Part shown: positions 31,090 to 39,158 of the stretch, in pieces
How positions within the stretch are numbered: position 1 is the stretch's first letter
How the letters are laid out: every line of letters begins with the position of its first letter
Origin: Candidatus Kapaibacterium sp.
GTDB lineage: Bacteria > Bacteroidota > Ignavibacteria > Kapaibacteriales > HRBIN21
Direction: 5' to 3'
Assembly (NCBI GenBank): GCA_938084565.1
Contig: CALKEU010000013.1
Coordinates: forward strand, 1-64,000
Length of the DNA stretch: 64,000 bases
Translations under genes and position numbers: made by a program
Notes under the pieces: model-generated
What the model saw: only the letters and a program-made list of their open reading frames with translations
Databases searched by the model: none
Told to the model about the DNA's origin: nothing

Positions 31090-31098
31090 TATTTTTGC
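31090..31098 (+). promoter_or_regulatory. TAnnTTTGC promoter element for the barrel/M1 pair
   Basis: TATTTTTGC, 36 nt upstream of the ATG at 31135, in the 125-bp divergent gap with the DUF3108 gene. Confidence 0.6.
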
Positions 31099-31134: not shown

Positions 31135-31809
31135 ATGCATCGGTTTCGTATAGCGCTTGTGGGAGCTACGGTGGCCGTTCTGCTGCATGTGCAGGCCCGT
31201 GAGGTAGCGCCTTGGGAGTTGCGGGCTCGTGGGTTACGGTTCGGGATAGGAGGGCGCACATTGGTGGGTCCGGATGCTCAGCGAGCAGCCCCGCAGCTGG
31301 GTATCAACGCTGGGGGCTTTGCCCTCTTCGGCTTGGCCGGCTTTGCTGGTGGTGAGCTTGGGCTGCAGCTGGAACTACTCTATAGCCAACACACTGTCGA
31401 GCAGGAGATTCCGCTGGGGGCTGGGGAATATACGCTGCGGTATGATCTTGCGTACTTGGAACTCCCTGTCATGGTGCGTTTTGCGAGGCCGTTTGGAGAA
31501 ATTGAGCTGGCGCCGCATGCAGGGGTAGTGCCGGCCGTGCGTATTGGTGGACGTCTGGAGCGGCGCGTGAGGACTAGCCCTCCGAGCAAGCTCGGAGCCG
31601 ACTTCTCCCCTGCCGATGTCGGAATATTGATCGGAGTGGGCAGTGAGTTTGTGTTCCGCCGGTCAGCGCGCCTTTTTGTGGATCTCCGCTTCCAATGGGG
31701 GATGCTTTCCGTACTGCGTCAGGAGTTCAAACCGCTGTTACGGGAGGAGAAACCACTGCGTGCGCTCAGGCGGGCATCATACGGGGTCACAGTCGGGATT
31801 GGTTTCTGA
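31135..31809 (+). CDS. PorT-like outer-membrane beta-barrel protein
   Basis: A 224-residue protein with a signal peptide (1-20, ending VQA) and alternating hydrophobic strands of the small-barrel type: FGIGGRTLVGP, GLQLELLYSQHTVEQEIPLG, YDLAYLELPVMVRFARPFG, IELAPHAGVVPAVRIGG, DVGILIGVGSEFVFR and the final YGVTVGIGF. The last residue is Phe, as expected for Bam-dependent barrels. LAYLELPVMVRF is characteristic of the PorT/outer-membrane beta-barrel (OMP_b-brl_2) family. It lies 11 nt before the M1 peptidase-barrel gene, so the two are probably made together. Confidence 0.8.
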   Translation: MHRFRIALVGATVAVLLHVQAREVAPWELRARGLRFGIGGRTLVGPDAQRAAPQLGINAGGFALFGLAGFAGGELGLQLELLYSQHTVEQEIPLGAGEYTLRYDLAYLELPVMVRFARPFGEIELAPHAGVVPAVRIGGRLERRVRTSPPSKLGADFSPADVGILIGVGSEFVFRRSARLFVDLRFQWGMLSVLRQEFKPLLREEKPLRALRRASYGVTVGIGF

Positions 31810-31820
31810 GGGAGGTCCCC

Positions 31821-34800
31821 ATGTGGCGGTGGCTGTGGATAGCGGGTGCAACAGCATTGATATGGGCCCAAGAATGGCAGCAGGGGGTGCGCTATACCAT
31901 TCAGGCAGTGTTGGTGCCGGCGGAGACCTTGCTCCAGGTACAGACACGCATGGTCTACCGCAACAATTCCCCCGACACGTTGCGGGAACTCTACGTGCAT
32001 CTGTACTGGAACATCTTTGCCCCCGGAAGCTATGCTCGGCAGCTCAGTCGGGAGCGCCGCCTAGAGCAGCTTCCTGAACTGCCCCCCGTACGGGTGGATT
32101 CTTTCGTCGTGGAAATGTCCACAGGGGAGCAGGGCAGGGAATACCAGGTGGACAATACCATTGTTCGATTGCCCCTGCCGCGCCCGCTGCTGCCGGGAGA
32201 TTCTGTCGAGGTTCGCAGTAGCATCGCCCAGCGTGTACCGCCGGAGGGGTTGCGTATGGGGCGATTCGAGAACGACTACTTTGTGGCCCATTGGTTCCCG
32301 TCGGTCTGTGTCTACGATCGCTACGGCTGGCACACGGAGCAGTACCTTGGCGTGGGCGAGTTCTACGAAGAAATTGCCGACTACGAGGTGGAGCTGACGC
32401 TTCCGGGCACATATCTGGTCGTGCATTCAGGCGAGCTACTCAATGGAGCAGAGGTCCTTCCGGCGAGCATCCTGGAGCAGCTAGAGCGAGCACGGGCCGA
32501 TACAGCACCGGTACGTGTGGCCGATTTGTCGGCACAGCCGCTTACGGATTCAACTCTCCGTACATGGCGCTTCCGCGCCGAGCGGATGCGTACGGTCGCC
32601 TGGGCTGCTGTCCAAAGCTACGTGTGGGACGTACAGCAATGGGATGGGATTCTCGTGCACGTCCTCTACCCGAAGCGGCTGGAGAGCTTTTACCGTGGCG
32701 AGGGCCTTCGTGCCGCTGTCCACGCCGTGCGGTACTTCTCCGAGTATCTCGGGCGCTACCCCTACCGGAATATGGTCGTCGTTGTTGGAGGCACAACCGG
32801 GGGCATGGAGTATCCGGGCCTTGTCTTCATCGGGCGCAACCTCGGTGGGGGGATCATGGCACCAGTAACGGTGGAGGTCATCCTCCACGAAATCGGGCAC
32901 AACTGGTTCCCGATGATGGTCAATTCCAACGAGACCGAGTTCGGCTTTCAGGATGAGGGATTCAACACCTTCGTGACGACACTGGCGCTTGAGGCCTTCT
33001 ATGGGAGGCAGCAGGCCGGGCTTCGTGTCTGGAAGGGGCTCCAGCCCTTTATCCCTCGGCTTGATGAGCGGACGTCCAATGCCATAGCGACCATCCTCTG
33101 GCAACTGACGGGCTGGGATGAGCCGCTGCTGACACGTTCGGATTGGCATCGAACAGCCGGAAGCTACAGTGTCAATGCCTATCCCAAGACGGCCTCGTTG
33201 CTCTTCATGCTACGGGGGATACTCGGCCCCCAGCTCTTCGACGAGCTCATGCGGGAGTATGTGCGCCGCTTTCGTTTCCGGCATGTGTATCCGGAGGATT
33301 TCGTGCAGCTGGCCACAGAGATTGCCTCACGGCATCGGGGGCAACGTTGTGACCTGCGTTGGTTCTTCGACCAATGGTACGCTCATACGCCAGTTGTGGA
33401 CTATGCGCTCGCGGGCTTTCGGAATCGCCCAGCAAATGATGGGACATGGGAGACGCAGCTTCTGGTGGAGCGGCGCGGCAGTGCGATCCTGCCGGTAGAG
33501 GTGGAATTGCGCTTGGCTAATGGGGAGGCTCGTCGAGTACGGATTGGGGAAGAGAGCTTTCTCCGTGGGCCTGCACACATTGTGCACCATCTGCGACTGC
33601 CGGCCCCAGTAGTGGCAGCCGTACTCGATCCCGATACGCTGTTGCTGCTGGATGTGAATCGCCTGAACAACCGAAGTGGACTTCTGCCTCCGCTGGCGGT
33701 TCGGGCGTTCGTCGAGGCCTTTGCCCCGGACCCACCAGAGCTCTATGCATATGGCATCTCGTGGCAGCCTGCTTTCGGATACAACAGCGTCGATGGCCTC
33801 AAGCTGGGGCTTGAAGTGCGTGGGGGGTATCTGGGGCTCTTCCATCGGATACAGCTGTCGGTAGCACAAGGGCTCCGTTTCCGGCCACATTCATTCAACG
33901 GACTGGTTCGCTATCGGCATCTGCTGTGGCAGGTTCCGGGGCGTCCGCACCTGGAGGCGATGGTGGCATGGCAAGATGGATGGTGGCGTCTGCGGGGTGC
34001 AACAACGTTACAGCTGTCCCCGATACCACCATCGCCGTGGCAGTTGAGAGTTCGCTTAGCCGCTGGGTATTGGCGGCGACAGACGACGCAGTATGCATTC
34101 CCGGCTTCACCGCTCGGGTTGGGTGTATGGCCATCGCAGCAGCTGGAGCTGCTGATGGGGAAAGCTGTGCTTGTTGCACAGCGAGAATTCTCGGGGGGAA
34201 GCATCCGACTGCGTGGCAGCGTAGAGCCGCTGTGGTATCGCGAGGCTGTGCCCGCTGCTCTGCGTCCGGCTCCATTTGTCGATGGACGGAGTCTGATCCG
34301 AACGACGCTGGAGCTCTTGCTGCAGCCATCGCTGCCGCTGCCTATTCTGCTCCGAGGAGTGGCCGGGTGGTTTCTCCCCGACGATGAGGCAGGGCTCGTC
34401 CCGCCGTTGGTGGGGTTTCGCTTAGTGTCGGTATCGCCCTTTGAGGAGCTCGAGCTCCCGCTATACCGTTCGCCGGGTATTATAGGGCCGAGGGCACGGC
34501 AGCATCGGACAGCTCCTACCGGCGGTGGGTTCCTGCGAGGGTACATTCCGCAGGACCAGCTTGGGCGTGCCTTGGTAGCGGTCAACGCAGAGGTAGGGAT
34601 TGCGCCGCTGTTGCGGGCTCTGCCGGGTCTTAGGATACTGGCCGCGCTGGTAGACGTTCAGCTCTTCGCCGATGGTGGGATGGTCGGGGAGCGCTTGAGC
34701 ACGCCTGGGCGGTGGATGTTCGATGCGGGGGTGAGTTTGAGTCTGCCCTTGGTGTCGCCCATTCCGGGGTTTGCTTTCCCGCTGCTGGATCGGCTTGGAG

Positions 34801-34922
34801 TTCAGGCAGTGGCGCTCGATCTCCCCCTCTTCCTCACCCATCCACCGGCGGGCCAACGCCGATGGGCCTTCCGGTGGGGAATTCGGTTCCGCTCGCTGCA
34901 GCAGGCTGTCCTCGAGTGGTAA
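31821..34922 (+). CDS. M1 metallopeptidase fused to a C-terminal outer-membrane barrel-like region
   Basis: A 1033-residue protein with a signal peptide (about 1-16). Residues about 20-570 form an M1 aminopeptidase: GGMEYP (around 327, in place of GAMEN) and zinc site HEIGHNW (His356, Glu357, His360) followed 18 residues later by Glu379 in QDEGFNTF, an exact HExxH-x18-E. Residues about 650-1033 switch to amphipathic strands (YGISWQPAFGYNSVDGLKLG, RWAFRWGIRFRS) ending in Trp, which suggests an outer-membrane beta-barrel. The protease may thus be tethered at the outer membrane. GGAGGT at 31811-31816, 4 nt before the ATG, supports this start. Whether the peptidase faces out or in cannot be read from sequence. 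Confidence 0.85.
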   Translation: MWRWLWIAGATALIWAQEWQQGVRYTIQAVLVPAETLLQVQTRMVYRNNSPDTLRELYVHLYWNIFAPGSYARQLSRERRLEQLPELPPVRVDSFVVEMSTGEQGREYQVDNTIVRLPLPRPLLPGDSVEVRSSIAQRVPPEGLRMGRFENDYFVAHWFPSVCVYDRYGWHTEQYLGVGEFYEEIADYEVELTLPGTYLVVHSGELLNGAEVLPASILEQLERARADTAPVRVADLSAQPLTDSTLRTWRFRAERMRTVAWAAVQSYVWDVQQWDGILVHVLYPKRLESFYRGEGLRAAVHAVRYFSEYLGRYPYRNMVVVVGGTTGGMEYPGLVFIGRNLGGGIMAPVTVEVILHEIGHNWFPMMVNSNETEFGFQDEGFNTFVTTLALEAFYGRQQAGLRVWKGLQPFIPRLDERTSNAIATILWQLTGWDEPLLTRSDWHRTAGSYSVNAYPKTASLLFMLRGILGPQLFDELMREYVRRFRFRHVYPEDFVQLATEIASRHRGQRCDLRWFFDQWYAHTPVVDYALAGFRNRPANDGTWETQLLVERRGSAILPVEVELRLANGEARRVRIGEESFLRGPAHIVHHLRLPAPVVAAVLDPDTLLLLDVNRLNNRSGLLPPLAVRAFVEAFAPDPPELYAYGISWQPAFGYNSVDGLKLGLEVRGGYLGLFHRIQLSVAQGLRFRPHSFNGLVRYRHLLWQVPGRPHLEAMVAWQDGWWRLRGATTLQLSPIPPSPWQLRVRLAAGYWRRQTTQYAFPASPLGLGVWPSQQLELLMGKAVLVAQREFSGGSIRLRGSVEPLWYREAVPAALRPAPFVDGRSLIRTTLELLLQPSLPLPILLRGVAGWFLPDDEAGLVPPLVGFRLVSVSPFEELELPLYRSPGIIGPRARQHRTAPTGGGFLRGYIPQDQLGRALVAVNAEVGIAPLLRALPGLRILAALVDVQLFADGGMVGERLSTPGRWMFDAGVSLSLPLVSPIPGFAFPLLDRLGVQAVALDLPLFLTHPPAGQRRWAFRWGIRFRSLQQAVLEW

Positions 34923-34927
34923 CGGGC

Positions 34928-36157
34928 TTATGGGGCGGGGGTGGTGAGCATACGTTCGAGCTCCTCTTCCTGCTGCAGGAACTGTCTCCGGAGAGCGGCA
35001 GCCTGCTGTGGCTTGCGGCGTTGTTCGTAGGCGCGGCTGGCCAGCTCGACGAATGCCTGGCGGTAGGTGGAGCGTTCGGCCGGATCGTCCAATTGCCACC
35101 ATGGCCGCTGGTGGAGCAAAGGGAGGAGGCGGCGCAGCGCCTCCTCAAAGTGCCCGCGTTCGGCAGCCTGTTGGGCTTGGGCCAGAGCAGCCTCCAGGAT
35201 CGAGCGGACACGATGGCTGAGGGTGTCCGGTACCGCTGTCGGATAGCGGCTGCGATAGTGCGCCCGGAGCTGTTCGACCAGGGCCGATACGGTGGCAGGG
35301 TCGGAGAAGTCGTAGGCCGGAACCCGTAGGGCCGGGATTCCATAGACAGCGATGGAGACCGCGTGGCTGTCTGCTGGAAACCCTCGGGCGCGGAGCGAAT
35401 CGGCCAGACGAGCCAGCACGCCGATGGTCAAATTCGTCCGCACAAGGCTCAAGGCCCCCCGCAGGAGAGCTACGCCCCACGGGGTGTCGTAGAGCGGAAA
35501 CCAGCGGAGGAGCTGCTGCCGGATGAACTGGGCTTGTACGGAGACCCGGTGGAAGTCATCGCCCCAGATACCTGTGCGCGAGCGTAGAATGCGTAGTAGA
35601 GCGCTCGGCTGTTCGAAGCCGAAGAGCCGCAGGAGTGCAAAGGCCTGGGAGAAGCCTAGCTCAACGTAGTAGTGGATCTCGGGGAGCTCAAGGAGCTCCG
35701 CCATCGCTGCCAAATGCGCCCGTAGGCCTCGGTGCGCTCGGACATTGGCCAGCTTGTTATACTGGCTCGTGTCCGGAAAGCCTGCGTCGGCAGGGGTATC
35801 CCGTGGGATACCCACGATGGTGATTCGCCCCGTTTGAAGATCCACCAGGAGTACATGGTTAGCATCGGCGTGCGGGGTCGGATCCTGGAGGCGGGCATCG
35901 ATGCCAATGAGGGCAATGGCAATGCAGTGTTGGCACGGCGGCAGCTGTCCTGTGGTGGATACTATTGGGGGAGCTGTACGGACGGAGGGGGTCGGAGGCC
36001 CAGCAATTGTATCGTCTGCCTTTAGGGAAGACTGTGCAAGCAGCGAATCGAGATGGTGCTCTGCTGGGCCACTCCAGAGCCTATGGCTGTAAAGCCACAG
36101 GAGGATCCCGCTGAAGAGGAGGGCAGCACCGAATATCCAGAGCCAGTACTTGCGCAT
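34928..36157 (-). CDS. LytR-CpsA-Psr (LCP) family protein
   Basis: A 409-residue protein with one N-terminal TM segment (about 5-23) and an extracytoplasmic LCP domain (about 80-300). ALIGIDAR, ADANHVLLVDLQTGRITIVG, then IPRDTPADAG with the Arg-Asp pair that binds the pyrophosphate, and NKLANVRAHRGL follow the family order. LCP enzymes transfer glycopolymers from lipid carriers to peptidoglycan. The C-terminal 100 residues are helical and Gln/Arg-rich (TPR-like or coiled). Its end lies 5 nt from the M1 gene on the opposite strand. The 119-nt gap to mazG holds no feature I recognise. Confidence 0.83.
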   Translation of the reverse strand: MRKYWLWIFGAALLFSGILLWLYSHRLWSGPAEHHLDSLLAQSSLKADDTIAGPPTPSVRTAPPIVSTTGQLPPCQHCIAIALIGIDARLQDPTPHADANHVLLVDLQTGRITIVGIPRDTPADAGFPDTSQYNKLANVRAHRGLRAHLAAMAELLELPEIHYYVELGFSQAFALLRLFGFEQPSALLRILRSRTGIWGDDFHRVSVQAQFIRQQLLRWFPLYDTPWGVALLRGALSLVRTNLTIGVLARLADSLRARGFPADSHAVSIAVYGIPALRVPAYDFSDPATVSALVEQLRAHYRSRYPTAVPDTLSHRVRSILEAALAQAQQAAERGHFEEALRRLLPLLHQRPWWQLDDPAERSTYRQAFVELASRAYEQRRKPQQAAALRRQFLQQEEELERMLTTPAP

Positions 36158-37950: not shown

Positions 37951-38461
37951 AGGAAAGCCTCCGTCTGCTTCGGCAGTGGAGATGATGCATTTGGTGCTGC
38001 CCAACCATGCCAACCAGCTGGGGAATCTGCTGGGTGGACAGCTCATGCAGTGGATGGATATTGCTGCGGCGTTGGTTGCCATGCGCCATGCGGGCAAGGT
38101 GTGCGTGACGGCGGCCGTCGATAGTATTAGCTTCCTGGAACCGATTCGGGTCGGACACATCGTGCACATTCTGGCCTCTGTCAATCGGGCCTTCCGTACC
38201 TCGCTCGAAGTCGGGGTCAAGGTCTTCCGGGATGATCCCATCAATGGGACGCGGACCCATGCAGCTTCGGCCTACCTGACATTCGTCGCAATAGATCAGT
38301 ACGGCAAGCCACTGCCCGTTCCCCCGGTGGAGCCCCAGACAGCTGATGAATGGCGCCGCTGGCGGGAAGCAGAATTACGGCGGCAACAACGGCTGCAGCA
38401 GCGTGAGCTGCTGCGGCAACTGAGGCATCACCACGATGTTCCACAAGCATCGGAGCACTGA
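37928..38461 (+). CDS. Acyl-CoA thioesterase, YciA/ACOT type
   Basis: A 177-residue hot-dog-fold enzyme that hydrolyses acyl-CoA. HANQLGNLLGGQLMQWMDIA corresponds to the family's catalytic loop and helix, and VDSISFLEPIRVGHIVHI is also typical. The C-terminal 50 residues are a Gln/Arg/His-rich extension (RRQQRLQQRELLRQLRHHHD). It overlaps bamD by 23 nt; the next gene starts 1 nt after its stop. Confidence 0.9.
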   Translation: MDSEVLPKGKPPSASAVEMMHLVLPNHANQLGNLLGGQLMQWMDIAAALVAMRHAGKVCVTAAVDSISFLEPIRVGHIVHILASVNRAFRTSLEVGVKVFRDDPINGTRTHAASAYLTFVAIDQYGKPLPVPPVEPQTADEWRRWREAELRRQQRLQQRELLRQLRHHHDVPQASEH

Positions 38462-38462
38462 G

Positions 38463-39158
38463 ATGGTGCGTATTGCTCTCGTTGCTCTTCTGAGCTCGTT
38501 TATCGTCACGGGAGCCTCGGCGCAATTTGTCTACCGCGCGGCGATAGGTGCGGGAGTCCACCCCAAGTTTGGCATCAATGCAGGCGAAATTCCGTCAGGG
38601 ACAAAAACAGGGGTTGCCTTTACAGGAGTACCTGACCTGTGGGCCCAAGGGGTACTGCCCCTGGACAAGTATGGCGAGATTGCCGTCGGGCTCGACATTG
38701 GCTACATGAGCCATGCGTTCATGACCAAGCCTGGGGATGCCGATACAACGCACGAGGGGAACACCTTCACCCAACACTACCGCTATCTCGGGATTGCACC
38801 GACGTTCTACCTGAATGTCCTGGGGTTAGGGCTCAACGTGGGGGTGCCGCTCGGCGGTACGCTGTCGAACCAGAGAGGGACTGTAGAGAAGGAGGTTCCG
38901 ACTTCCGATATGGGGGTGTTCGTCGAGATACGGCTGGGTATTTCTGCCCCCTTGGTCAAGGATCCCAAGAGCGGGCGATTGAATTTACAGCTGTTTGCCT
39001 CCTATGGGCTGACGAAGCTGCCGGCCAAGTCCTACGAGCTCATTCGTTTAGGGCCGCAGCCACCGGTGCCGGATCGCTATGCTCCACGGATTGCTGCTTT
39101 AGCGGTGGGCTTGAGCTACCACTTCTTCTTGGGAGTTGAACGGGCTACGGTCGAATAG
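38463..39158 (+). CDS. Putative outer-membrane beta-barrel protein
   Basis: A 231-residue protein with a clear signal peptide (1-20, ending GASAQF). Strand-like repeats follow: YRAAIGAGVHPKFGINAGE, YGEIAVGLDIGYMSHAFM, YRYLGIAPTFYLNVLGLGLN, GVFVEIRLGISAPL and IAALAVGLSYHFFLG. This fits an eight- to ten-stranded barrel of the Bacteroidota outer-membrane type. It does not end on an aromatic residue; about seven residues follow the last strand. I cannot name the family or function. It sits between the thioesterase and aspartokinase genes in a tight operon. Confidence 0.72.
   Translation: MVRIALVALLSSFIVTGASAQFVYRAAIGAGVHPKFGINAGEIPSGTKTGVAFTGVPDLWAQGVLPLDKYGEIAVGLDIGYMSHAFMTKPGDADTTHEGNTFTQHYRYLGIAPTFYLNVLGLGLNVGVPLGGTLSNQRGTVEKEVPTSDMGVFVEIRLGISAPLVKDPKSGRLNLQLFASYGLTKLPAKSYELIRLGPQPPVPDRYAPRIAALAVGLSYHFFLGVERATVE

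Follow-up and report, generated by a model that had tools for sequence, protein, structure and literature searches.

What does an M1 metallopeptidase do when its chain runs on into a predicted outer-membrane barrel, and does it need the second, small barrel encoded next to it? This question is raised by two plus-strand genes in the window, the 64-kb stretch of DNA analyzed here. The first gene (31135..31809, plus strand) encodes a small outer-membrane barrel of 224 aa, assigned by its PF13568 (OMP_b-brl_2) match and by adjacent orthologues. The second (31821..34922, plus strand) encodes an M1-Omp85 fusion of 1033 aa starting at ATG 31821, here called the M1-barrel protein, which was assigned by its open reading frame (ORF), PF01433, and relatives of the same architecture. 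Both ORFs lie where a preliminary description of this DNA had placed them (31135-31809 and 31821-34922), and the ORF calls leave 11 nt between them. Upstream, the pair is bordered by a divergent DUF3108 gene, and downstream by a gene of the LCP family in convergent orientation, so the unit consists of exactly two genes. This downstream gene (34928-36157, minus strand) encodes a LytR-CpsA-Psr-like (LCP) protein that has a TPR-like stretch in its C-terminal part; LCP is an unusual family in a bacterium with an outer membrane. Another small outer-membrane-like protein, conserved in the genus, is encoded at 38436-39158 (plus strand). Its match to the TDE1717 family is marginal (E 0.15), and it has no Pfam match.

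The M1-barrel protein starts with a predicted Sec signal peptide, MWRWLWIAGATALIWA (31821..31868, plus strand), which was read from the sequence and is directly followed by QEWQQ, a stretch kept across the genus. The M1 N-terminal and catalytic domains correspond to residues 17-530 (31869..33410, plus strand). They were delimited by PF01433, which matched residues 301-519 with an E value of 9e-16 (58.5 bits versus a curated cut-off of 27.7), and by barrel-less homologues that align over residues 19-618. The zinc site HEIGH (residues 356-360; H356, E357, and H360; 32886..32900, plus strand) has its H/E/H invariant, and so is the third zinc ligand, E379 (32955..32957, plus strand). The ligands H356, H360, and E379 constitute an HExxH-x18-E site and are invariant in the family, in agreement with the intact site named in the preliminary description.

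By sequence, the closest solved structures belong to M1 enzymes from the group of leukotriene A4 hydrolase. The leukotriene A4 hydrolase/cold-active aminopeptidase group shares with the M1-barrel protein the PF01433 catalytic domain and HExxH-x18-E, but it is without a barrel and has GGMEN instead of GGMEY. M1 enzymes are exopeptidases as a rule. A motif search in relatives identified GGMEY (32799..32813, plus strand) as the GxMEN exopeptidase motif with an N-to-Y change; GGMEYP was present in every barrel-bearing relative matched by this search and in Planctomycetota homologues. Because GGMEYP is common to barrel-bearing and barrel-less relatives, the change does not reflect decay. Exopeptidase specificity is not assured, since GxMEN reads GGMEY.

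The C-terminal third, when used as a lone sequence query, had no match in Pfam or the PDB. A C-terminal profile built from nine relatives (A1) was used to scan 294 genomes of the class. Matches were obtained in 57 of them, nearly all in ORFs of ~1000-1120 aa, and those fetched carry M1. Of the fetched matches without M1, L097 has a PF01103 match (Omp85, E 1.1e-5) and L098 has a weak POTRA match. Both align to A1 from the RGY motif onward. This motif (residues 906-908; 34536..34544, plus strand) is invariant in A1, was aligned to VRGY of BamA, and is the equivalent of the Omp85 loop-6 VRGF/Y.

PF01103 was matched by no A1 member, the barrel being too divergent for it. For Omp85, 28 PF01103 barrels found in the same class served to build an independent profile, and the two profiles were compared using hhalign. 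The C-terminal profile matched Omp85 with a probability of 97.3% and an E value of 2e-11 (96-97% across comparisons), mainly in the C-terminal half of the barrel. Controls from the same genomes reached 0.7% (TonB receptor barrels) and 0.3% (OMP_b-brl_2), 30 column-shuffled profiles did not exceed 0.6%, and reversal of the profile gave 0.2%. A broader profile, A5, was searched against 177,635 PDB sequences. The best match was BamA (9cmw), weak alone at E 0.025, with RGY on VRGY and FADAG on FADAG. The Omp85 profile match with clean controls, together with the BamA alignment, indicates that the C-terminal domain is a divergent Omp85-type barrel, a predicted member of the Omp85 (BamA) superfamily that is seen only by profile comparison. 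It would form a closed 16-stranded barrel in the outer membrane.

By hhalign, by stand-alone barrels (see below), and by BamA as the top PDB match, this domain comprises residues 640-1025 (~385 residues; 33738..34895, plus strand). Pfam detected no POTRA domain in the M1-barrel protein, and the region ahead of the barrel is common to barrel-less M1 proteins. Omp85 subfamilies without POTRA exist (PMC4104836). The C-terminal part had initially been described as ~380 residues ending in Trp. The ~385-residue barrel agrees with this, but the terminal Trp is specific to the genus; in relatives, the protein stops with the last strand, on F or L.

The boundaries of the modules were provided by homologues that carry only one of them. 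Homologues in Planctomycetota can be aligned over residues 19-618; among them, several proteins of 688-692 aa stop at the equivalents of residues 604-620. These barrel-less M1 proteins (e.g., L036) have an M1 domain with ~28-33% identity over residues 19-618 and the same GGMEYP but stop after a beta-sandwich, without a barrel. Their end defines a beta-sandwich-like domain at residues 531-620 (~90 residues; 33411..33680, plus strand), which by sequence is a predicted separate, M1-associated domain ahead of the barrel. The stand-alone barrels are exported proteins of ~400-470 aa from another class, whose matches extend over the full barrel profile (E values from 1e-33 to 1e-52) and which begin at the point where the barrel of the fusion begins. 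Since the barrel-less M1 proteins end at the sandwich and the stand-alone barrels start at the barrel, the M1-barrel protein is a true two-module fusion.

The stand-alone Omp85-like barrels (L216-L223, L229, L230, and L232) are unrecognized by Pfam; in this other class of the phylum, their synteny with acetate kinase, NUDIX, and GreA-type genes is conserved. A split fusion, with stand-alone barrels beside M1 genes, was considered and rejected: their neighbors by sequence are these three types of genes. In a Cyclobacteriaceae genome (L048:4686-13797), four barrel-less M1 genes (739-772 aa) were found in a row.

The same data bear on an alternative in which the C-terminal region would be no barrel but a soluble, beta-rich M1 domain. 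Pfam is silent on this region, and AlphaFold2 gave no usable model, with a mean pLDDT of 33 for the full protein (single-sequence) and 27 for residues 600-1033 with L033 (two-sequence alignment). Family-averaged hydrophobicity alternation revealed strand-like peaks through residues 640-1023, but the sandwich scores equally high, so this result is only suggestive. A soluble domain is nevertheless very improbable given the Omp85 profile match with clean controls, the BamA alignment, and the existence of stand-alone exported versions. Moreover, a beta-sandwich is already accounted for. The preliminary description had opposed a soluble sandwich to a barrel; the sandwich at residues 531-620 exists, and the barrel follows it.

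Fusion of an M1 peptidase to its own C-terminal outer-membrane barrel, as initially proposed, is borne out by its presence in many relatives and by the Omp85 profile match. M1-barrel fusions were detected in all six genomes of the window's genus and in roughly a fifth of those sampled from the class; other classes of the phylum have them in several families (L224-L228 and L231). The M1-Omp85 combination is widespread in Bacteroidota. Some genomes have M1-barrel paralogues, and one genome harbors two M1-barrel genes in tandem (L110:4145-10518). In the M1 tree, f1 and f5 form a sister pair to which f20 attaches. Sequence comparison shows how the protein is built, that its zinc site is intact, that it is related to Omp85, and that the fusion is conserved.

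Next to this fusion, the small protein (31135-31809) matched PF13568 with an E value of 9e-11. It had been called PorT-like; its membership in PF13568 stands, but PorT is merely the generic name of this family. PF13568 OMP_b-brl_2 (the "PorT family") includes the small protein, and nothing marks it as PorT of the type IX secretion system. In all six genomes of the genus (the window and five others), the small barrel gene comes first and is separated from the M1-barrel gene by 3-17 nt. Phylogenetic comparison revealed a TATTTTTG box of the Bacteroidota -7 type (31090..31097, plus strand) ahead of the small barrel gene in six of six genus genomes; TAnnTTTG has nine occurrences on the plus strand of the 64-kb window. 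A sigma-70 scan found no plus-strand promoter upstream of the operon, and its sites were no more numerous than chance. Judging from gap lengths and the shared box, the small barrel gene is probably cotranscribed with the M1-barrel gene in the window's genus, where its product would have an auxiliary role.

In family f20, a small barrel homologue adjoins the M1-barrel gene in two of three genomes, and the homologues are reciprocal best hits. At both f20 loci, a terminator-like hairpin with a T-run lies between the two genes (hairpins at L100:4417-4576 and L102:4503-4747), suggesting that they are probably separate transcription units there. The claim that both genes are under one promoter is supported in the genus only, by its box and short gaps. 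Beside the M1-barrel gene, the small barrel gene was absent in f5, in the f20 genome G077, in f16, f18, f19, f23, f24, and f25, and in others; by synteny, at least 10 other M1-barrel lineages are without a small barrel in the neighborhood. Co-occurrence of the two genes in relatives was found in the genus (6/6) and in f20 (2/3) but not in f5 or these at least 10 other lineages.

In its strong version, that description envisaged an obligate two-barrel machine made of both gene products. The 11-nt spacing, the promoter-like box, the pairing kept in all genus genomes, and the reciprocal best hits that lie next to the M1-barrel gene in two f20 genomes would fit such a machine. The lineages in which the small barrel is missing (f5, G077 of f20, f16, f18, f19, f23-f25, and others) and the hairpin with T-run at both f20 loci make it highly unlikely. 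An obligate partnership with the small barrel was rejected on the basis of synteny, and a machine with the small barrel cannot be upheld as the general layout, because the adjacency is limited to the genus and two of three f20 genomes. The parsimonious reading is that the small barrel is a clade-specific neighbor, with one gain and subsequent losses, and not a core subunit.

What, then, does the fusion do? The M1 peptidase and the POTRA-less Omp85-type barrel in one polypeptide probably make up an aminopeptidase that faces the periplasm and is tethered to the outer membrane. The M1-barrel protein would be exported by Sec, and its C-terminal barrel would be inserted into the outer membrane by BAM. 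The barrel would anchor the M1 domain on the periplasmic side of the outer membrane, at its inner face, and this domain may cleave periplasmic peptides there, probably as an aminopeptidase. Peptide scavenging or trimming would be the most likely role. The periplasmic orientation, the catalytic activity, and the peptide-processing role are what we infer, the function from homology and context. For the orientation, two arguments were used. In Omp85 proteins generally, the N terminus enters the first strand from the periplasm. In PlpD, an analogous fusion, the patatin domain stays periplasmic (PMC11116518). A "surface or periplasmic" position had been suggested initially; by the PlpD analogy the periplasmic one is favored, and surface display is less likely (PMC11116518).

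Surface display corresponds to the original type Vd idea, in which the barrel moves the M1 domain to the cell surface, resulting in a surface or released peptidase. Omp85/TpsB barrels are able to carry polypeptides across the outer membrane, and PlpD was first described in this manner (PMC4104836), but its patatin domain was later shown to remain in the periplasm (PMC11116518), and a folded M1 unit of ~600 residues would be a large passenger. We consider translocation to the surface unlikely.

For the tethered periplasmic aminopeptidase, catabolic neighbors in some relatives, a DPP-IV-type S9 peptidase (f20) and a sodium:solute symporter (f16), suggest a role in peptide use. Neighbor genes differ between lineages, and only two of many neighborhoods speak for peptide scavenging. 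The main functional rival of peptide use is quality control at the outer membrane, with the M1-barrel protein as an envelope protease tied to outer-membrane protein assembly, its barrel near BAM and its role similar to that of periplasmic gluzincins such as BepA. Against this, M1 enzymes are normally exopeptidases, no assembly genes were tied to the M1-barrel gene across the lineages examined, and the fusion occurs patchily, in about a fifth of the class, which speaks against a core role in assembly. On the other hand, metallopeptidase-Omp85 coupling recurs in the same class, in an unrelated gluzincin composed of Peptidase_MA, a PD40 propeller, and Omp85, and Omp85 proteins are generally tied to outer-membrane assembly (PMC4104836). 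On balance, a quality-control role is rather doubtful. Equally tentative is a broader proposal, according to which the fusions are a widespread, undescribed Omp85 subfamily that couples M1 proteolysis to barrel function, be it the passage of peptides or the assembly of outer-membrane proteins; in one clade, the small barrel would be an additional, dedicated subunit.

Omp85 proteins both build the outer membrane and traverse it, and to our knowledge only a handful of enzyme-Omp85 fusions have been recognized. A conserved M1-Omp85 family across Bacteroidota that is invisible to Pfam offers a natural test of two alternatives: either Omp85 barrels have been reused to anchor enzymes, as argued for PlpD, or the enzyme participates in what the barrel does. 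Many Bacteroidota genes that are likely annotated simply as "M1 metallopeptidase" would encode outer-membrane proteins. In the open-licence literature, we found no description of M1 with Omp85 or BamA, in line with the earlier statement that no described system of such layout was known to its author.

Ten Omp85/TpsB subfamilies were described by Heinz and Lithgow in 2014, who noted an expansion in Bacteroidetes/Chlorobi (PMC4104836). Among them, the "Metallo" and the N-terminus-less subfamilies combine an enzymatic or absent N-terminal domain with an Omp85-type barrel, but "Metallo" is defined by PF00149 and not by M1, and the word "peptidase" is absent from the text of that paper (PMC4104836). 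A second metallopeptidase-Omp85 architecture was detected in the window's class in L233, L234, and L235 (~900-1060 aa), which contain Peptidase_MA_2 (PF13485), PD40 repeats, and an Omp85-type C terminus. Like the M1-barrel protein, they join a clan-MA metallopeptidase to an Omp85-type C terminus (PF01103 E 3e-15 in L234); unlike it, they have another peptidase family and a beta-propeller in between. The M1-Omp85 fusion is a variant of the enzyme-Omp85 fusions already known. In PlpD and other patatin-like Omp85 proteins (PL-Omp85, type Vd), an N-terminal hydrolase and a C-terminal Omp85 barrel are likewise combined in one exported protein, whereas the M1-barrel protein has M1 instead of patatin, no evident POTRA, and a barrel that PF01103 does not match.
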